From NCBI RefSeq assembly GCF_030253575.1, contig NC_080561.1, forward strand, positions 36,999,564-37,063,563: DNA of 64,000 nt, in the 5' to 3' direction. This DNA comes from Rhododendron vialii. Lineage: Eukaryota; Streptophyta; Magnoliopsida; Ericales; Ericaceae. Shown here in pieces: positions 6,722-57,892 of this stretch; positions within the stretch are counted from its first letter, which is position 1; each line of letters begins with the position of its first letter. The translations under genes and the position numbers were made by a program. The notes under the pieces were generated by a model, which was given only the letters and a program-made list of their open reading frames with translations, searched no databases and was not told the DNA's origin.

Positions 6722-7392
6722 GAGCATCTCCAACCCACACTCCATTTCTTCATTTTGGAGGAAAAACATTCTTCAATCCATCCTATAAAACTCTCCTTCA
6801 TTTGGGAGGATGAACTTTGATCCTCTAAATATAGAGGATGAAGGAAAAAATAGATGATCTCCTCCAAATATGTGTTGGAGTTGATAAATAGAGTATTGGG
6901 TTGGAGTTGAGATAAATAGTACAATCTTCTAAATTTACTTTTCAAATAAAATAGATTAATTTGGGAAAATCCTATGTGTACCGACCATTTTTGGACCGAA
7001 ACCGTACCGACGGCCGCGCGCGGCCGTCTCCGGCCACCGAACGGCCGATCCGAGCCGTCCAAAAATTTTAAAAAAAAAAACCGAGGGGCCCAACGCGGGA
7101 ATCAACGTCATCCGATGTGTGTAGGGTGCTTGATCTAAACACCCTATTTTTCGTGTATACATATATACACGAAAAATAGGGTGTTTAGATCAAGCACCCT
7201 ACACACATCGGATGACGTTGATTCCCGCGTTCGGCCCCTCGGTTTTTTTTTTAAAAATTTTTGGACGGCTCGGATCGGCCGTCCGGTGGCCGGCGGTACG
7301 GTTTCGGTCCAAAATGGTCGGTGTATATAGCAGTACTCATTAATTTGATCCTCTCAAATAGAGATTTGGAGGGTGTTGGATTGGAGATGCTC
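6722..7392. mobile_element. MITE C, same family as A, split by a Mutator-like hairpin
   Basis: Ends are GAGCATCTCCAACCC at the left and its inverted near-copy at the right, with TAA at 6719-6721 (shared with A) and 7393-7395. An insertion at 6964-7338 and its 9-bp duplication interrupt it; the pre-insertion length is about 287 bp. Confidence 0.8.
6964..7338. mobile_element. Mutator-like hairpin MITE, copy 1 (9-bp TSD)
   Basis: A long imperfect palindrome is centred near 7158, where TATACATATATACAC-type sequence joins the arms. The target duplication ATTAATTTG is perfect at 6955-6963 and 7339-7347. Each arm holds a GC-rich outer block (GGCCGTCTCCGGCCACC) and an AT-rich inner block. A 9-bp duplication is the signature of Mutator-type transposition. 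Related full copies lie at 17703, 30087 and 57277, and a shorter one at 29308. Confidence 0.85.
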
Positions 7393-17702: not shown

Positions 17703-18089
17703 CAGAAAGTCTACGGTTGCCGATCGGGAAATCCCGATCGGAATCCCGACGCCTCGCCGGGCACTCTCCGGCCACTGGATGGCCGATCCGATCCGTCCAA
17801 TAATTCTATAAAAAAAAACCGAGTGGACTTTTGCGAAAATAAATGGCATCCGACGTGTGTAAGTGGCCGATCCAAGCACTCCTTTTTTGGCCGATCCAAA
17901 CACAAAAATGGAGTGCTTGGATCGGACACTTACACACGTCAGATGCCGTTTATTCTAGCATTAGCCCACTTGAATTTTTTTTTTAGAATTATTGGACGGA
18001 TCGGATAGGCCGTCCGGTGGCCGGAGAATGCCCGGCGGGGCGTCGGGATTCCGATCGGGATTTCCCGATCGGTAACTGTAGACTTACTC
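17703..18089. mobile_element. Mutator-like hairpin MITE, copy 2 (9-bp TSD)
   Basis: The termini are CAGAAAGTCTACGG at the left and, reversed, GAGTAAGTCTACAG at the right. TTTTGTTTT is duplicated at 17694-17702 and 18090-18098. The element is palindromic, and the arms meet near 17890 around TGGCCGATCC/GGATCGGACA. Both arms contain GATCGGGAAATCCCGATC, itself a perfect palindrome. Confidence 0.85.
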
Positions 18090-18544
18090 TTTTGTTTTCC
18101 GTCGCAACCGTACCGGTGCCAAAACTGATGAATAATTTTGCTAGAAACCGCACCCCACGCAGTTGTATTTTTCCTAGTCACTTGTCCGACTCATTTCGAA
18201 AATCTGTTCCGTTCATATCGTAGTTCTCGTTGAAACATATGAGTGCGGTTTGAATTCATGTTAATTTGATACCAATTATACTTGAACGGAATACAAAATC
18301 GGGAGGGCCAGGGCAGAGACAGGGTAATGCGATCTTTCTGCCTTGGCTTTGGTGTCGTACGGCCTGTTTATTGCTCAAGTGTGTGATGTTCTGGGCATTC
18401 TCCTCATATAAAAGGTAGCCATAGAATAGGTTTTATCCTAGAAAAATGTTTGCTATAATAAGGTCATTCCTTCCTCAGGTCAAGTCAGGAACGTAGGGAT
18501 GCCGAACTCATACCGGAAGAACTACCCTTTTACAGCCTACACAA

Positions 18545-20435: not shown

Positions 20436-20975
20436 AAGACTGTAAAGACCCGAAATTTTCTTTTAAATTTTAACATTTTATAAGTGGACAAATAATGGTT
20501 AAGTGTGAAGATTATAGTTGTGGGTCAATGTGCAAGAGTTTGAAATATGTGGGTGTTAGTGTGATAAGGTGCATGTGTGTATAAGTGTGTGTGCCAGGGG
20601 AAAATTAATCCCATTCTCTCTCCCGTTCCCTCTCTCGGCTCTCTCTCTACCTCTCTCACTCCCTCACCCAAAAACTCTCCTCCAAACTCAAAACCCACTC
20701 AAATCAACCTTCCATCATTCATCCCTACGCGTCTTGTGGTTCGTATCTCGTGGGTCTTGCTCGGAGGAGGAGTATTCAGTTGTTTTTCGAAGTTTGGAGA
20801 GCTAGGGCTTGCTCAACTTGCGTGGGTTTCGCTTCTCGACTTGAGGTAGGGAATTCTACCTCTCTTTATATGTTTTATGAGTGATTTGGTGCATGAATCG
20901 TGCTTGTAATGTCATGTTTAAGTTTGGATTGAAAATTCGTAGTTGCTGTCAGAATTGTCTGTTTTTCCTGGATTC

Positions 20976-21469
20976 CTACCGGTAGGCCCGTCCTTTCTAC
21001 CGGTAGAACGTTGTTACTTTACCAGAAAATCGATTCCCTACCGGTAGGAACTTTTCACCTACCGGTAGAACGTTTGAGAAATTTCGTCAACCAGCTCAAA
21101 CGTATAGCAGCAGCTCAAAAGCTGCTCAACGTACCGAACTTCTACCGGTAGGAATCCCTTACCTACCAGTAGGTCAAGCACGAACTTGAATGTTGGTTGA
21201 ATGTTGGCCTTTCTGTTTTCAAGTTTTACCAGCAAGTCCTACCGATAGGTAGGTCAAGCACGAACTTGAATGTTGGCCTTTCTATTTTCAAGTTCTACCA
21301 GCAGGACTTGCTTGCCTACCGGTAGGTTGCGTTTCTATTTTCAAGTTCTACCGGCAGGAGATCAGGAGTTTGAGCTGCTTCTTTGAGCTGCTGCAGTATC
21401 TTTCAGCTGCCAGCAGGACTTGCTTGCCTACCGGTAGGTTGCGTTTCTATTTTCAAGTTCTACCGGCAG
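20976..21469. repeat. Array of paired CTACCGGTAG palindromes, 21-bp spacing
   Basis: Perfect CTACCGGTAG starts at 20976, 20997, 21038, 21059, 21142, 21316 and 21428. One-to-three-mismatch versions start at 21163, 21295, 21348, 21407 and 21460. Start-to-start distance is exactly 21 bp for 20976/20997, 21038/21059, 21142/21163, 21295/21316 and 21407/21428, and 32 bp for 21316/21348 and 21428/21460. The left site of a pair tends to be TTCCTACCGGTAGG and the right one CTACCGGTAGAACG. Confidence 0.9.
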
Positions 21470-21607
21470 GAGATCAGGAGTTTGAGCAGTTTCTTTGAGC
21501 TGCTGCAGTATCTTTCAGCTGCTTCCTTATTTGAGCTGCTGCAGTATCTTTCAGCTGCTTCCTTATTTGAGCTGCTGCAGTATCTTTCAGCTGCTTCCTT
21601 ATATCCT
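21297..21607. repeat. 112-bp direct repeat and 36-bp tandem repeat
   Basis: The segment starting GCAGGACTTGCTTGCC at 21301 recurs at 21413 (period 112). It is followed by about three copies of a 36-bp unit built from GAGCTGCTGCAGTATC and TTTCAGCTGC (21497-21607). Open frames over this stretch reflect the repeat and not a gene. Confidence 0.9.
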
Positions 21608-22393
21608 TCAACTCGCATATCGAAGCTTTTCATTGACTCTAATGAGTGTGTTTAAGTATCATTCCAAGTGTTTTGGTGAGTATTACTCGTATCTCACTTA
21701 GAATGACATTCAATGGACTAGAGTGACCATGTCTAGGGATTCAATGAATAGTATTGCAATCTGTTCTTTCTCCCGACTCGTAAAATTCTTAGATTCCTTT
21801 AGTACATGCTTTTACGGACTCCGAGTATAGAAACTAAAAAATCGGGCATCGTAGAGTCTAGTCGTGGATTAATATGTGGCTTGTAAAGGTACGAGAAATG
21901 TACTTAGAGGTACGGTGAGGACGTGTGGGATTATGGTGCACTTAAAGAAAAAGGCGTGCATTAATTAATTAGTCAGAGTCTTGACATGGATGACAGGTAG
22001 GAACGGTTTGAGATGTAATCAACGTAGTGGATTGGTAGATTGTTTAGAATGCTTGAAGTGAAAATCGATGGGAGAAAGAATTGTTTGAGATGATAAAACA
22101 ACTTGTGTCCTTTCGACTCGTCAAGTCTTTTAATCCTTTTGACACTCTATCTATGAGGTTTAAGTGTTGAAACTAATGGATAAAGTATGGTAGGATTATA
22201 CGTATGGGCTTGATACGCTATGTTAGATGCGAATGGGTAAACCAATGAAAAGGCATGAACATGTACATTTGTGGAGTCACGTAATGATTAATTAAAATTC
22301 AGTGGTATAACCGTCGAAGGGACGATGAAATTGATTATGAAATGATGTCGAATTGAGAAAAGTGTGAAAGGTGACCCAAGTGGTCGTTATTGA

Positions 22394-22522
22394 GGGAAAA
22401 GACTCGGGGTGACCCTATGCTCGAGGGAACTAGACCCGAGGTGACCCCACCTGATTATTATTATTAAGGGAAGAGACTCGGGGTGACCCTACGCTCGAGG
22501 GAACTAGACCCGAGGTGACCCT
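22394..22522. repeat. Two-copy repeat with inner mirrored motif
   Basis: Two copies of a roughly 60-bp unit. Each has ACTCGGGGTGACCC and then GACCCGAGGTGACCC about 30 bp later. It lies in the outer LTR, just left of the inner LTR. Confidence 0.85.
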
Positions 22523-23579
22523 AGTGATTATTGATGGGAAATACAGGATTAAAGGAAGAGAAAGGTTTCGCAATAAAGGGATTTAATGGAGGTCAATGTG
22601 GACACGAGAAAGATTGTGTAACGACCCGGATTTTTGACCCAATTTTTTTTCTAAATATAATAATATTAGAATTATTTTCCTTAATGCAATTCTTTTTTTT
22701 AAATATAATTATGCATACAATATAATTATGCATTCTTTTTTTAATTTTCCTACACATACATGCGTACATGCACACTCCTTTTCCTCCCTCACCTCAAACT
22801 CCTTCCGTCTCTCCGTCTCCTACTCAGTCTCTACTTCCTCCCTAACCCTAAAACCAAGCCAAATTCGTCCATTCCAAATCCCATGAACCCAACCCTATTA
22901 AATTCACTCTTATTCTCTTCCACCAAAATTCTCCTATAAATACCCCACCCCATTGACCCATGAAATTTACACCACAAATATTTCCCACGCCCTACCAGTC
23001 CAAAAGAGAGAGAAAAATCAGAGAAACCCAAGCTTCAATCAATGGAGTTTTAGAGAGAGAAAGAGAGAGAGAAAAGTGGGTTTCGTACCAAGACTCAACC
23101 AAAACTCAATCCGACCATTCTAATCTCTTCCTACTACTCCTAGCATCACCAAGCATCGTCCAATTTGGTTCCAAAGTCTTCCGATCAAAGAACCCGAAGT
23201 TTTTCTTTCCCAAAATTCAAGATTCGTTTTTAAATCAATTCGATCCGATTAAAGGTACTATAATCCTATCCAACCTCTTCTTTAAGTATATTAAGTGTTT
23301 ATATGCTTAACCCTATGTCCTGAACGAAAAAAATATAGTTTACTGCGCGTTTTCTGCCATATTCACCACTCTGATATTATTTTTGAGCCCGACATTGTAT
23401 TTGTAATTATTTACGAAGAAGATGACTCTTTTGATATTTATTTTACAATCCGTCTGATATTATTATTATTTGAAACTACTGACTTGATATTATTTTCTTA
23501 CAAAATAATATCATCAAGTATAAAACGTATTAATTATATCAGTTTAATTTATCTGATAGATTAAGTTGATTTTAAACGT

Positions 23580-24130
23580 TTCGAAACAACTTTGCGACCT
23601 TCCGAACATCGTTTATGACACCCGAACTATTTTTCCTAGACTTTTCACAACTCAAGGATCATAACTTGTTAAGATCATATTTTTTTTAATTAATTATCTA
23701 TTTATTTAATTATTTATTAGTTATCTATCAAAGTTTACAAACGAAAAATCTTTGCGACCTTCTAAACAACGTTTTAACACCCAAACTAATTTTTCCTAGA
23801 CTCCTTGCATCTCAAAGATAATATCTTGTTAAATTAATATTTTTTTTATTTAATTTACTATTTATTGTTATTTTTATAGCGTTTTCAATCAAAAATTCTT
23901 TACGACCTTATAAACCTTATTATAAATGCCCAAATAATTTTATTTAGACTCTCTACATTCTGAAGATAAAATTTTGTTAACCGCAATATATTTTAAACTG
24001 TAAATTATTTATTATCTATTTACTTCACTTTTGATCACTTTATTTAACGTCTTTATTTAAATAAATCCTGTGACCCTCCGAATCCAACTTTTGACACTCC
24101 ACTGGTTGCGTAGGATCTTTAGGACTCTTA
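23580..24130. repeat. Degenerate tandem repeat, period about 155-165 bp
   Basis: TTTGCGACCTTC-type words followed by ACACCCGAACTATTTTTCC-type words recur near 23590, 23752, 23906 and 24068 with increasing divergence. It lies inside the inner LTR. Confidence 0.75.
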
Positions 24131-24546
24131 TTTAGGTCATGATAAATACTCCAATATTTTTATCTAATTAATGTATTAAATTAGTTTTTAATTAATCTAT
24201 TATCTTAGAATTAATTAATAAAAGCCCAGAAAATTTTCCTTTTAATTTATTTTAAAAACTCTTACTTTATTATTGACATTGTGACTATACAAGATTAAGG
24301 GCAACGGCCCGTTCATAATAAGTTACGTGATTACATTGTTTATTAATTGTTTTAATTATTATTGATTTGTTGTATATTGCATCGATACTTGATTTGAATG
24401 CTAGATTGGACCCTAGAGACATGGGGTGGTATTGCGAAATAGAACTCATCTAGACGATGCTAAATAATGGATAAATTGAAAAGTTTTATTTTTAGATTGC
24501 CTGCAGGCGGGATTTTGAGATGTGATGAGTTGGATGTGATGGTTTG

Positions 24547-24645
24547 AAACTGGCAAAGTAAGCCCAGTGTTGATTGATGAATGATGATTGGCAAAGTAAG
24601 CCCAATGATGAATGATGTATTGATACTGGCAAAGTAAGCCCAGTG
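24547..24645. repeat. Three copies of GGCAAAGTAAGCCCA
   Basis: GGCAAAGTAAGCCCA occurs three times at intervals of about 40-46 bp, with ATGATGA spacers, inside the inner LTR. Confidence 0.85.
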
Positions 24646-25883
24646 ATGATTGTGAAGTGGTATATAAGATAAGCGAACCCTAGTTATGATTCGGGCATGA
24701 TAAGCTTTCTTTTGTTGTAATGAGAGGGATACACGCTAGGTACATAACTGAAGTGCAATCCGCGACAACAAAAGAAAGTGAGCTCATGGGACAGGGCATA
24801 GCTAGCGGTTGGGGAGGAAAGATCTCGCGGAGAGATCTTAGATTTCACATTAGGTTATGAATAGTAATGAACTGGCTTATGTGGAGAATATTTGTTTGGC
24901 TTCTTCGATTCAATATTATCTTGTTACCTGCTAATTGTAAAGTAAGAGGGGTGGTTGGGTTGAATTATTCTACTGGGTGATTTATCACTCACGGATACGT
25001 CTGTATCCTGGCAAATCGTTTGCTTCGGCGATCAATTTGCCAGTGGGCACAGGATTCAATGGAGATGATTCAAAGATGGTGCAGTTCAACACGGAAAGAA
25101 TATCAAGAATGAAGATCTAGTATGCTTCAGATTTGTATCAAGTTTAGAGTCAGCTCTGAAGTTAATGTATTTTGAATCAGTAATTTATCTTGTGACTGTA
25201 ATAGCTAAACTTTATTTTGAAAAATTATATTTATTTAGCAAATTTTCTTAAGATTTTATTTTATATTGCTTCCGAAAAGTCGAGGCGTTACAGATTGTAC
25301 TACCGTACGAAGAATAATAAGATGTTTTGATTTGATTATAGACAAATGTGGAATGACGTGAGTTTAATAATGTAACTAGTTAAAGAAGTAAACGGCTAGT
25401 GACCTTGATGTGAAGTCTAGGACTCTTAGGCGATAATTTGCAGCTTGTTGATAGTCACTTGTATTATAGGCGTATCTGTCCATACTCATTCATTCTCGAT
25501 GTATGATTCATTCAAACTACATATAGCTTGAGCTTAGAATTCTCTACTGGGCTAGTGTAGCTCAACCAAATCTTTCTTTTTAGGTTCTGATGCCGGGCAA
25601 TAGATTGCATGCATTGTGTGCTTGACAGTAAAAGACTTTTGGAAGCTGACATCACTGGTTATTTCGTCATCTTTGAGAAGATCTCATTTCGTTAAAGATG
25701 GTTTTGTAAATAATTACTATTGAGTTTTCTTTTGACTAAAGTTGTAATTATCTAAACTTAAGGATTTGTTTGTAAATTAAACTGGTGAGAAACTCCTTTG
25801 GGTAACGTATATGATATGCGAGGTTTTTCTTTTATTGAAATGTATTACTTAATCATGTTGAAAATCGAGGGCGTGACAAAGAC

Positions 25884-30086: not shown

Positions 30087-30420
30087 GAGTACCGACCGGC
30101 CGCGCAGAGACCGTCTCCGGCCACCGGACGGCCGATCCGAGCCGTTTCAAAATTCTAAAAAAAAAACCGATGGTTCCTTGCGGGAACCAATGGCATCAGA
30201 TGCATGTACAGTGCTTGATCTAAAAAATGGTGTTTAGATCAAACACCTTACACACATTGAATGTCATTGATTCTCGCGTGGGTCCCATCGGTTTTTATTG
30301 TAGAATTTTTGAACTGCTCAAATTGGCTGTTTGGTGGCCAGAGACGGTCTGGTGCAGCCAGTCGGTATGAATTCCCTCCGCTCGGTCGGTACCTATATCA
30401 TTTCATTTTTATTAAAAAGG
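30087..30420. mobile_element. Mutator-like hairpin MITE, copy 4 (9-bp TSD)
   Basis: AAATGCCAT is duplicated at 30078-30086 and 30421-30429. The left end is GAGTACCGACC. The right arm ends GGTCGGTACC and then has about 28 extra bases before the duplication, so the left end is probably trimmed. The arms pair across a short loop near 30225 and are more diverged than in copies 1, 2 and 5. Confidence 0.8.
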
Positions 30421-42570: not shown

Positions 42571-43557
42571 AATCAGTTCCCTTAATTTTAATTAAGGTTT
42601 ACGATAATTAATTAAGTACAGCCACGTAGGGGTCAAGTTGAGTTGGACCGGATTAGCTCATGGCTGACGTCTAATTAACTTCCTCATTTTGTTTGGTTCT
42701 CCCTCATAAATATTTTTTTAATTTTTTTTTACTGTTGCGTCGTCCGTGTTTTTTTTCATCTTTAGTGATTTCTTTTATCAAATTTATTACTTTTTTTTTT
42801 TGATGTATATAAACATACCTCTATTAAAAAAGAAAAAGAGTTTGTTAAAATGTTTTAAAAATTGACAAAGAACGAAAAATACGCAAACTTATAAAACTTT
42901 TTTTTTTTAATCTCAAAACTGACATTTAAACAAAGTGTTGAAGTTCCTTTTTTTGTCCAACCCCGGGTTAGATTGTCGCATATACTGTACTATACTAGCA
43001 ATGGGTCATTGCTAAGAGAGAAATTTATTCACGACACTCCGCGCAATCTTAGCCGCCCAAAACACTTTTGAACGGTCGAGATTGAGCATCGTAAAACTTA
43101 TTCACGGTTTCTTTTTCTTTTTTTTTTTGAAAATGTCAATTTCATTTCTTAACAAGTCCGAAGGCAATGATTACATCGCAAGCAAAATACAGGAGTGCAC
43201 CGAACTACCTACTCAGGGATTAATGGACACCCTACAAAAGCAATCAACACTAGGTGCCGATATGAGAATTCCATCCAGGACTAGGCAGAGAGAAATCGAA
43301 ACGAAATCCCAGTACAAACCATTACACAAACATAACAGATGTAATCAGAACAACAAACAGATCACAAGCGAAAAGGCCGGCCGAAGACCAAATCCTCCTT
43401 CTCCTTGACCTGCAGCCGTCTCCGCCGGCGCAAGGCCAGCCCACGACAGAAATCAACCAAATAGGCAGCCTTCCGGTCCCATGAACTACTGTCCTTTTAG
43501 CATGCCAGCCGATCAGAGAAAACTCCGCAGTAAGCCTCCGCTGCCACAGCAAGCTCC

Positions 43558-44964
43558 TGCTTGCGACCTTAATGTGTGTTGCAATAAGAATGCCCCAAGC
43601 GTAGGGCTAGGTCGGTTGAAAGCATAATAATAATACCCAGAAGTCCGGGGTCGAATCCTCAGGGAGCGCATCCATAACTTGTCTCAGAGATTAGCTTTAA
43701 GAGAGTTTTAGTGTTAGGACCGCCAACCGATCTTCGGCTTTTAGACGGCCAACTTGAAAGATTTGGTTAACTGGCTACTTAACCTAACTACGGCTTTTTG
43801 ACTGGAGGTTAAACTAAAGGCTCGGTCTAGGGATAACTAACAATCATAACGCAAGGATAAGCTCGATTCTTCTCTTTTTAACGAAAGTGTTAAACATGTC
43901 TGGGGTCCTTTTTGAGCATTTAGACAAACACGAGGAGGGACATAGCTCTAGGTATCAAATGTGGCAAAAGGATTAACCATTGCTTACATTTGATCCAAGA
44001 GAGTAACACCTCAAGGTTTTGATTCATAAAATAGGTCCTTGCCATGTTTAAGCTGGAAAACAAGAGTTCTCGAGAGGAGAACGAGCCCACCCCTGGTTAC
44101 GGGATGTTAATCATCTCATAACCTAGTCTTGCTACACTACTCACACATAATGAAAGGAGAAGTGATATGGATTAGGATTCGGATGAGAGAACACGAAATC
44201 ATGCTGAAAGCAGAAATAAAAACTAGATTAATAAGGATCCCAATGAAACTTACAACATTAATGAAAGCAATCCTCCTCCAAATCCCCAAATCAATGCTCC
44301 ATTAATGAGGGAGAAAAGAGTTGGTGAGAAGAGGCGGTAGAGAAAGAAAAGAGCTGATGTCTAAGAACATAACATAACCCTAAAAACGTGCAAAAGAGTA
44401 TTTATAGCATCCCTTTAAAGTTACAAAAGAAAATAGAAATCTGCAGAAATTGGGGCTTCCTACCGGTAGGCATTGATCTCCTACCGGTAGAACGGCTTCG
44501 AGCAAAAGGGGACACTGAAAAATCTGGCTTCCTACCGGTAGGCATTGATCTCCTACCGGTAGAACTTGAATGGTGCAACTTTGTGACCTCTCTGATTAGG
44601 CGTTGGACCGGTAGAGCAGGCCCTCCTACCGGTAGGAATGAGATTATACCGGTAGGCATTGATCTCCTACCGGTAGAACTTCCTTTTCTACGAATTTTGA
44701 TCAGCTTCTTCTGGACTTCTCCAAACTCTCCGGGGCTTCGACACAGCTCATCCGGACTCCGCTATCGCTTCATTTACCCCACGGGTCCCCGAATCACGAT
44801 GGGATAGGCTCATGGCGTTAAAACTGCCTTATTAAAGAAAAGAACCTGCAAACACCAAAACGCACCCTTCGCACAATATCATTCAAAAACATAGAGTTAT
44901 GCGCGCGCGCGTACCAAAAATGAGCGAGATAAGCCCGAATATAACCACAATTGTGGGCTTATCA
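43558..44964 (-). mobile_element. Solo LTR (1,407 bp) inside the retroposon, TSD GCTCC
   Basis: On the minus strand it begins TGATAAGCCCACAATTG and ends GGTCGCAAGCA (TG...CA). GCTCC is duplicated at 43553-43557 and 44965-44969. CTATAAATACTC on the minus strand (44397-44408) gives the orientation. The CTACCGGTAG array lies 50-270 bp upstream of this TATA box, in the presumed U3. No internal coding domain is present. The 139-codon plus-strand frame at 44388-44807 is a by-product of the array. Confidence 0.87.
44460..44676. repeat. Second CTACCGGTAG array, 21-bp phase
   Basis: Perfect CTACCGGTAG starts at 44460, 44481, 44532, 44553, 44626 and 44667. Near-perfect sites start at 44605 (GGACCGGTAG) and 44646 (ATACCGGTAG). 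Spacings are 21, 21, 21 (44605 to 44626), 20 and 21. The spacer GCATTGATCTC is the same in three pairs. Confidence 0.92.
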
Positions 44965-45527
44965 GCTCCAACCACGCAACCGAAGCAAACCAAACTAGGT
45001 CCGGCCGGCTGAGCGTGGTCACGGCGACCGGTAACCTTCAAGAAGACTATCCGTTGAAACTCATCCACAACCCATACCAGAACAAGAACGAAAAAGAAAT
45101 TATTTGCCCACTACCACAACCTCACCAGATCCGGGGGAGACGCGAATCGGTACACAACCGGACTGAAAAGACCAGCCGGTAGAGGAGATGAAAAATCGTC
45201 AGAAAAGGAAAAGAAAACCCTAATTTCAAAACACCTCACCTTATTAAATCCAACCACCGACCACCAGCTACCAGATCTGAGACTCCACTGTGAGGACCGA
45301 ACGGAGAAACCCACGAGCTATGGCCGGAGTCCAAGCGCCGAGCTCAACAATAGACGAAACGAGAACTGAGAGGTGTGAACAGCAGAAAGGAGGGGAGGAA
45401 GGGGGGAAATTAGGGGAAAAAGGGGGGGGGGGGGGGGGGGGGAAGGGGGGGGGCGGGGGCCCCTCCCCCAACGGAAAAACTTAGCTGTAGAAAAGTTTAG
45501 AGAGAGAAACAAGAGAGATTCACGGTT

Positions 45528-46038: not shown

Positions 46039-46870
46039 GGACACGGGGCTCTGCTGCCCACCATGGGCAGTAGCCCCTGCCCACACCTCACACACACCTC
46101 ACACGGCACCGTTTTGGGAAGGAAAGAAAAACCAAACTTTTCGTTTGCAATCTTATAGAGCAGAAACGTGATTATGAGAGCTCTAGAATTAAAATTTAAT
46201 TATGTCTCTTTAGAATAATATGATCAGAATAATAAGATCTTCGTGTCAATTCAAACGGATTGAAAATTGGAGCACTTAATTTTTTAATCAATTTTTTAAT
46301 ATATAAACGGTCTAAAAAAAAATTAAGTACGCCAAGTTTTAATTCGTTTGAACAAGTACGAAGATCTTATTATTCTAATCATATTATTCTAAAGTATCAT
46401 AATTAATTTTTGTCTATAGGGCTCTCATAATTAAGTATATGCTCTTTATTTAGGATCCTGTAGATCAGAAACGTGATTATGAGAGCACTATAGACAAAAA
46501 TTAATTATATCTCTTTAGAATAATATGATCAGAATAATAAGATCTTCGTATTTGTTCAAACGAATTAAAAATTAGCGCACTTAATTTTTTTTAGACCGTT
46601 TATATATTAAAAAATATGATTAAAAATTTAAGTGCTTCAATTTTCAATCCGTTTGAATTGACTCGAAGATCTTATTATTCTGATCATATTATTCTAAAGA
46701 AACATAATTAAATTTTAACTCTATGACTTTCATAATCACGTTTCTGCTTCATAGGATTGCAAACGGAGAGTTTTGTTTTTTCTTTCCTTTCCAAAACGGT
46801 GCCGTGTGAGGTGTGTGTGAGGTGTGGGCAGGGGCTGCTGCCCATGGTGCGCAGCAGAGCTCCCGCGTCC
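46039..46870. mobile_element. 832-bp hierarchical palindrome (foldback element)
   Basis: The whole element is an inverted repeat. The GGACACGGGGCTCTGCTGC end is matched inversely at 46848-46870. CACACCTCACACGGCACCGTTTTG (46083-46114) is matched inversely at 46793-46826. Each arm is again palindromic: GAATAATAAGATCTTCGT blocks occur four times in alternating orientation near 46229, 46362, 46532 and 46664. The outermost flanks share only TAT, so the target duplication is uncertain. No coding capacity. Confidence 0.88.
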
Positions 46871-57276: not shown

Positions 57277-57684
57277 GAGTAAAGCTACAGTTTCCGACGG
57301 CCAAAATCCCGATCGGAATCCCGACGTCCCGCCGGGCACATTCCGGTAACCGGACGGCCGACCCGAGCCGTTCAAAAATTCTAAAAAAAAAATCGAGTGG
57401 CCTTTGGGAGAATAAACGGTCCGACGTGTGTAGGTAGCCGATTCAAGCACTCCATTTTTAGCCGATCCAAACACTCCATTTTTGGCAGATCCAAACACAA
57501 AAATGGGTTGTTTGGATCGGCCATCTACACCGGTCGGATGCCGTTTATTCCCGCTAAGGCCCACTTGGTTTTTTTTTTTTAGAATTTTTGGACGGCTCGG
57601 ATCGGCTGTCCGGTGGCCGGAGTGTGCCCGGCGGGACGTCGGGATTCCGATCGGGATTTTGGGTCGGTAAGGGTAGACTTTTCC
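57277..57684. mobile_element. Mutator-like hairpin MITE, copy 5 (9-bp TSD)
   Basis: TTTTACTGG is duplicated at 57268-57276 and 57685-57693, and identity extends by GA on the outside. Ends are GAGTAAAGCTACAG and, reversed, GGAAAAGTCTACCC. Arms meet near 57490, where CCATTTTT(A/T)GCCGATCCAA-type words are locally triplicated (57440-57500). The longest copy, 408 bp. Confidence 0.88.
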
Positions 57685-57892
57685 TTTTACTGGGATCTCA
57701 ATTAATTTTTGAAGGATGAATTCCAAAATCTACTACTCCATTAGGAAATGTATTTAAAAAGTCAACGTAAAGTCCCGTGTTCTCTTTTTCTTTTTGCTGT
57801 TTTTATTCCTGGGGGTTTCCCACCTCATTTCCCTTGTGTTTTCGTGAGAAAAAACAAAAGATCGGACGGGATTTGTTACATTTGCGATTCCG

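Follow-up and report, generated by a model that had tools for sequence, protein, structure and literature searches.

How did the same short palindrome, repeated 21 bp apart, come to lie in two solo LTRs of one stretch of Rhododendron vialii DNA, and what would it do there? The stretch, referred to below as the window, is 64,000 nucleotides long. Within it the 10-bp palindrome CTACCGGTAG occurred in 13 exact copies, against a mean of 0.01 and a largest count of 1 in 100 dinucleotide shuffles, and in 18 copies when one mismatch was allowed, against 0.42 expected. A chance origin of the copies was rejected on the first of these counts. All 13 exact copies were confined to two solo LTRs, seven in an LTR that begins at 20441 (the 20441 LTR) and six in the LTR at 43558-44964 (the 44460 LTR, after the first site of its array). 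The features of both are as follows.

20441..22616, plus strand: left portion of the other solo LTR with an array (TGTAAAGACCCG...GCGTGACA; 2757 bp when the insert is excluded)
20976..21469, plus strand: array of the 20441 LTR, seven exact palindromes and four with one mismatch
22617..25292, plus strand: palindrome-free LTR inside the 20441 LTR (TGTAACGACCCGG...GGCGTTACA; duplication GATTG)
25298..25878, plus strand: right part of the 20441 LTR; duplication AAGAC at 20436-20440 and 25879-25883
43553..43557, unstranded: target-site duplication GCTCC, left copy
43558..44964, minus strand: solo LTR, 1407 bp, TGATAAGCCC...GCAAGCA; non-chromovirus Ty3/gypsy, Athila-like, the family being taken from elements elsewhere with both LTRs
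44396..44407, minus strand: TATA-like box CTATAAATACTC; CTATAAATA is present in 25/30 family copies
44460..44469, unstranded: palindrome CTACCGGTAG, exact
44481..44490, unstranded: palindrome, exact, 21 bp further
44532..44541, unstranded: palindrome, exact
44553..44562, unstranded: palindrome, exact, 21 bp further
44605..44614, unstranded: degenerate palindrome GGACCGGTAG, two mismatches
44626..44635, unstranded: palindrome, exact, 21 bp further
44646..44655, unstranded: palindrome ATACCGGTAG, one mismatch, 20 bp further
44667..44676, unstranded: palindrome, exact, 21 bp further
44965..44969, unstranded: target-site duplication GCTCC, right copy

Two LTR families that carry the array

The first-pass annotation had placed the 44460 array in a host LTR of its own, with spacings of 21, 21, 21, 20 and 21 bp within its groups of sites. 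Both points were borne out: the starts and spacings were correct, with six sites exact, the site at 44646 one mismatch away and that at 44605 two, and the host is a separate 1407-bp LTR on the minus strand, bounded by the GCTCC duplication. Successive spacings over the whole array were 21, 51, 21, 52, 21, 20 and 21 bp. Read in the direction of its own LTR, the array occupies 289-505 and CTATAAATA begins at 558; the array thus lies upstream of the TATA-like box on the minus strand, the nearest palindrome being 52 bp away from the box. A coding repeat was rejected by reasoning, since the plus-strand stop-to-stop frame at 44373-44807, which repeats FLPVGIDLLPVE, opposes LTR transcription and the 20- and 52-bp steps break the frame.

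The 20441 LTR extends to 25878, with a third LTR embedded in it at 22617-25292, in which no exact or one-mismatch palindrome was found. This nested 2.7-kb solo LTR has termini similar to those of the 20441 LTR and, with the palindromes absent, is a natural array-free comparison. Around and past the 20441 array, at 21186-21602, lie more tandem repeats (112-, 53- and 36-bp units) rich in GAGCTGCTGCAG words. Towards its 3' end, the 44460 LTR carries GGGGTCGAATCCTCAGGGAG at 43640-43670, which resembles the B box of a tRNA T-arm; words like it also occur in other plant Ty3 LTRs. Elsewhere in the window, a 305-bp unit is present in about two tandem copies, 80% alike, at 46156-46736, and one repeat at 17706-18093, 57277-57688, 7004-7305 and 30089-30367, with matches in both orientations that are about 71-78% alike (longest matches), resembles a foldback or MITE family.

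Relatives of both LTRs were sought in the 532.6-Mb assembly (13 contigs), and the assignment to two lineages described here covers the fetched loci, 30 of the 44460 family and 20 of the 20441 clade. A genome search with the 44460 array as bait gave 42 matches, of which the 30 with a fetched locus were analysed and the other 12 were not included. All 30 LTRs begin TGATAAGC and retain at least three exact palindromes (3-7 per LTR), a proportion that says nothing on the share of array-free members because retrieval by the array misses them. By their flanks, nine of the LTRs are followed by a primer-binding site, eight resemble 3' LTRs and 13 resemble solo LTRs. The sequence after those nine is TTTTTGGCGCCGTTGCCGGGGAGC or a close variant, in agreement with the primer-binding site TGGCGCCGTTGCCGGGGA, which we take to be a mark of Athila elements. 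Eight pairs of LTRs lie 10.7-12.1 kb apart on the same strand, with mates 94.5-100% identical. In one such family element, read in four pieces, matches to reverse transcriptase (RVT_1), RNase H, the integrase zinc finger (H2C2) and the integrase core (rve) were obtained, together with an aspartic protease match just below the cut-off; the closest solved relative of the reverse transcriptase piece is Ty3. A chromodomain, the mark of chromoviruses, and a second RNase H, the mark of Tat elements (both as given in PMC6317226), were not found in these four pieces (scan up to L077:1283). By its domains and primer-binding site alone, the 44460 family is placed as a non-chromovirus Ty3/gypsy family that is Athila-like.

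For the 20441 clade, at least 21 clusters of palindrome pairs were located in the first 6.3 Mb of contig 1, among the matches listed, and 20 were fetched. In single linkage with the palindromes masked, all 20 loci joined the 20441 LTR, 17 directly and three (L058, L059 and L069) via intermediates, and the 44460 LTR and the nested LTR stayed outside. Six elements with both LTRs are represented by pairs of loci (ends TGTARAGACCC and CGTGACA; mates 99.9-100% identical). In all six, TTGGTATCA adjoins the LTR, which we take to be a primer-binding site of the tRNA-Met type. Priming by tRNA-Met is also used by other lineages (PMC6317226). Two of the six paired elements were examined for a chromodomain; the matches (E 3e-5 in L057 and 5.4e-4 in L060) are both below the Pfam curated cut-off, and in both elements the integrase region is followed by a strong Tf2-1 SH3 match beside the weak chromodomain match. 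From these domains the 20441 clade looks chromoviral.

BLAST between the 20441 and 44460 LTRs with the palindromes masked returned nothing significant (best E 0.028, 13 bases). A single LTR family for both arrays was rejected by this comparison together with the linkage. The claim that the two hosts are unlike therefore held, through the masked comparison and through the different primer-binding sites and domains of their relatives, and classification from copies elsewhere, which the first-pass annotation had proposed, gave a non-chromovirus Ty3/gypsy family (Athila-like) and a chromoviral-looking clade. By these comparisons, the two arrays sit in only distantly related Ty3/gypsy families of one genome.

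The position of the array was assessed in both lineages. It is about the same in all 30 family LTRs of the 44460 family, and length changes within the array are steps of 21 or 41 bp. One copy (L031, G000:C11:28233685-28237019) has one extra 21-bp palindrome unit, L032 lacks one unit, and L033-L038 lack about 41 bp, showing that the array turns over unit by unit. The CTATAAATA word follows the array in the 25 copies noted above, and the exact word was not found in the other five. For the 20441 clade, the LTR start was set in 12 LTRs with an array, and every one of these arrays begins 536-591 bp into its LTR. A CT-rich leader precedes the array in those LTRs that were read, and a TATA box at 154 was seen in L063 and L065 only. 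This position and the leader suggest that the 20441-clade array is probably downstream of the transcription start; should the TATA box at 154 in L063 and L065 be the promoter, transcription there would run through the array, and the two lineages would differ in where the array lies relative to the start. The earlier statement that the array sits just upstream of a TATA box thus applies to the 44460 family and fails as a general rule.

These positions also bear on the idea that the cassette represents a separate, third transposon that landed in each LTR, an outcome which the first-pass annotation had named as grounds for abandoning its reading. Two 40-bp cassettes are identical in the 44460 copy and the stretches between them differ, as an inserted element might leave them. 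The nearly constant position and the 21- and 41-bp unit gains and losses in 30 copies of one family, and the start at 536-591 bp in all 12 LTRs of the other, argue against such an insertion, which we regard as highly improbable.

Helical phasing and conservation of the palindromes

The spacing between exact palindromes was counted across the genome. Pairs with starts 21 bp apart numbered 2,263 and those at 19, 20 or 22 bp 121 (2,384 in total at 19-22 bp); 19 pairs were found at 23-28 bp and 405 at 29-40 bp (424 at 23-40 bp), 56 at 44-48 bp and 1,249 at 50-54 bp. These are counts of copies, dominated by large families, and some of the 50-54 bp pairs span an inner palindrome (29 + 21). Searches with the reversed pattern returned 0 in every range of spacings.

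Spacings were further analysed in 15 arrays of the 20441 clade (14 of the 20 fetched loci plus the window) and in 30 LTRs of the 44460 family; the six mate LTRs among the 20 loci were dropped as duplicates from the spacer and flank analyses. Spacers were taken between neighbouring exact sites, and those of equal length that were at least 60% alike were merged. Between 15 and 90 bp, 49 spacers were left, including 11 of 21 bp, and their best period (among 5-30 bp) was 10.4 bp (R 0.75). After removal of spacings of 20-22 bp, 37 spacers remained with R 0.68, a value reached by 0 of 2,000 uniform draws; for one lineage alone, 1 of 2,000 draws reached the corresponding value in the 20441 clade and 4 of 2,000 in the 44460 family. 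With one mismatch allowed, the figures were 0 of 2,000 for both lineages together, 12 of 2,000 for the 20441 clade and 2 of 2,000 for the 44460 family. None of these phase figures is a strict probability, because the test overstates independence by counting length variants of one spacer apart and by including spacings that are sums of others (52 + 21 = 73). The spacings at the fetched loci gather at multiples of 10.4-10.6 bp, which corresponds to one face of the helix. Against phasing stand a 29-bp spacing, more than 2 bp short of three turns, that is common in one high-copy subfamily, and the pairs that do occur at 44-48 bp.

Conservation of the palindromes was assessed in an alignment of the 30 family LTRs of the 44460 family (28 distinct), with rates matched for sequence context. 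Changed cells were fewer in the palindromes than elsewhere for CG (1.9% versus 8.9%), for A/T (0.7% versus 5.3%) and for CHG (5.2% versus 7.7%). Other C/G cells, outside CG and CHG, did not differ (5.4% in the palindromes versus 5.5% elsewhere), which counts against selection.

Change after insertion and difference between source copies were then separated with eight element pairs only. Differences between mate LTRs, which arose after insertion, affected 27 of 580 cells in the palindromes (21 of the 27 being transitions) versus 215 of 10,071 outside them, so that the palindromes of the 44460 family changed at roughly double the rate of the remaining LTR sequence; this fits the change expected of methylated CCGG. 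Where mates agree, variation between the eight elements affected 2 of 80 palindrome columns, 38 of 167 spacer columns within the array and 252 of 1,173 columns beyond it (Fisher, palindromes versus spacers p = 7e-7, versus outside the array p = 6e-8). Since the palindromes change faster after insertion yet are nearly invariant between source copies, low mutability cannot explain their conservation. The conservation between elements fits purifying selection on the source copies, to which gene conversion between repeats perhaps adds in part. In three LTR groups of the 20441 clade (13 sequences, first 1300 bp), the palindromes differed by 2.6, 8.2 and 2.5%, the array spacers by 19.2, 17.0 and 5.5% and the sequence outside the array by 16.5, 28.7 and 20.9%, a difference biased downward for the palindromes because their columns were picked with at least one intact sequence. 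The suggestion of the first-pass annotation that the array is a regulatory element agrees with these results, as it behaves like a selected cis element both in the context-matched rates and in the comparison of mates with source copies.

A probable regulatory array and its possible origin

We consider it probable that the LTR uses the array as a cis-regulatory module, whose phased palindromic sites would be bound cooperatively by a putative dimeric host protein and would drive transcription, much as has been proposed for the palindromic motifs of Sireviruses. The phase, the conserved 10-bp palindrome, the selection on source copies and the adjacency to the TATA box fit a cooperative, dimeric host protein. 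The palindromic sites YCTACCGGTAGR would be presented on one helix face, two turns apart within pairs, and the host DNA-binding protein would assemble cooperatively on the array and activate transcription of the LTR. Such a protein would act on sites whose palindromy, dominant 21-bp spacing, phasing, occurrence in two lineages and, in the 44460 family, conservation beyond mutability were established above. In the 44460 family the array would serve as an upstream enhancer beside the TATA box, and in the 20441 clade it would probably act from within the transcribed leader. That the array of the 20441 clade is probably on the other side of the start site argues against one geometry for both. The shared and selected palindrome suggests that the same host protein serves both lineages. 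A MYB-type factor is a weak candidate because the half-site CCTACC matches the AC-I element, a MYB element with the sequence ACCTACC (PMC6416899), in six of its seven bases. The base before the half-site is T in 14 of the 19 window sites and A in only 2 of the 19, which weakens the lead.

Palindromes also pair in RNA, and hairpins in the transcript could serve the element in packaging or dimerisation, or could be a liability that feeds small-RNA silencing. Predicted folding was stronger than in all 200 shuffles at 44440-44700 (z -6.6) and at 20950-21200 (z -7.1), and palindrome clusters of maize Sireviruses are described as attracting small RNAs (PMC10760457). Such folding is, however, a consequence of palindromy itself. 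Hairpins predict neither the 10.5-bp period over 15-90 bp nor the 1,249 pairs at 50-54 bp versus 56 at 44-48 bp, and changes in one palindrome were, as judged by eye, unmatched in its partner. We therefore regard a role or cost at the RNA level as unlikely. Phased CCGG steps could likewise set nucleosome rotation, bend the DNA or form a methylation target with no sequence-specific activator, as the helical phase, the CG and CHG cytosines in each site and the predominance of transitions among the changes after insertion would allow. Within the 10-bp word, the A/T bases too show conservation (the 0.7% versus 5.3% above) beyond the needs of bending or methylation, and we give this structural explanation a slightly lower probability than the RNA-level one. 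The cooperative binding of a host protein to the array remains the preferred explanation.

The presence of such a module in two lineages could reflect exchange, in which one lineage took it from the other by template switching or recombination and the spacers then diverged; this is compatible with the cis-regulatory explanation. The sequence TTCAAGTT[CTACCGGYAG]GAGATCA (palindrome in brackets) is common to the 20441 LTR of the window and the 44460 family in the same orientation. Its shared flank amounts to 15 contiguous bases, a length reached by 0 of 400 shuffles (mean 8.6, largest 14) and not in the opposite orientation (10), and the spacing order 21-52-21 is found in both lineages. The contiguous run was, however, picked as a measure after a count of all flank matches, by which the best pair (16) is inside the shuffle range (mean 14.4, largest 17, n = 200; opposite orientation 15). 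Six flank pairs scored at least 15, against a shuffle mean of 1.0 and a largest count of 10, and the masked BLAST between the lineages gave nothing significant. An opposite orientation of the cassette in the two LTRs was rejected, as a symmetric palindrome defines no orientation and the longest match between flanks is in the same LTR orientation.

Convergence would instead have each lineage build the same array of sites independently, under selection for one host factor. The spacers are mostly unlike, the array position relative to the presumed promoter differs between the lineages, and heat elements are described as having arisen recurrently in Copia LTRs (PMC5059998); the shared 15-base flank and the 21-52-21 order are not expected of independent origins. 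From the sequences compared, exchange and convergence are held about equal, each falling a little short of an even chance. Viral relatives were considered separately: ten stretches of viral contigs had paired palindromes, with two or three sites each and other flanks, and were judged unrelated. A broader and more tentative proposal is that one module, of phased CTACCGGTAG dimers, moved between the deeply separated chromovirus and Athila-like lineages, so that a genome-wide regulon of very many elements would depend on one host factor and parasites would trade enhancers.

Comparison with known LTR motifs

Two Ty3/gypsy lineages of the same genome share a clean, phased array of putative binding sites that is present in high copy number and shows evidence of selection. 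With it one can test whether retrotransposons that are not related acquire host regulatory modules by convergence or by exchange, and it can serve as an unbiased bait for a plant DNA-binding protein. Comparing mates within an element with different elements tells function apart from mutability, and the approach can be applied to further LTR motifs. The half-site of the palindrome is like the site in the element Tto1, which reportedly has a 13-bp LTR element that responds to stress through a GGTAGGT-type MYB site; Tto1 is said to belong to Ty1/copia, and its site is said not to be palindromic. In the open-access literature searched, the string CTACCGGTAG appeared in seven papers on animal, yeast or microbial subjects, as judged by title, and no title on a plant transposon was found.

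Heat elements in the COPIA LTRs of Brassicaceae (ONSEN, COPIA37 and TERESTRA) are clusters of nGAAn for which the factor, HSFA2, and the induction are known (PMC5059998). As may be the case here, several LTR families have the same host-factor site, acquired partly independently, and the ONSEN element is described as arising by duplication of a shorter precursor (PMC5059998). The sites here differ in forming a phased palindrome array, and the COPIA elements in that factor and induction are known (PMC5059998).

The closest resemblance is to the repeated motifs of Sireviruses, short palindromes which are present in at least eight copies, have a CGG-CCG core in 12 of 13 cases and cluster in the LTR upstream of the TATA box (PMC2829016). 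Those motifs are nearly identical in elements of very low overall similarity, have an inferred function and are called Sirevirus-specific in the same source (PMC2829016). The palindrome CTACCGGTAG likewise has a CCG/CGG core, and its cluster is upstream of the TATA box in the 44460 family, with the 20441 clade not, or not clearly, so arranged. Compared with the Sirevirus minimum of eight copies, the 44460 LTR has eight sites including two degenerate ones, with the LTRs alone counted. Unlike Sireviruses, which are Ty1/copia, the hosts here are Ty3/gypsy by their Ty3-type reverse transcriptase, RNase H and integrase domains. Helical phasing and a comparison of changes after and before insertion are absent from the Sirevirus motif section of PMC2829016. 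Relative to the open-access literature searched, the new observations are the Sirevirus-like palindrome arrays in two Ty3/gypsy lineages and their helical phasing. Given its Ty3/gypsy hosts, the array falls outside the Sirevirus motifs, although it may function in a similar way.
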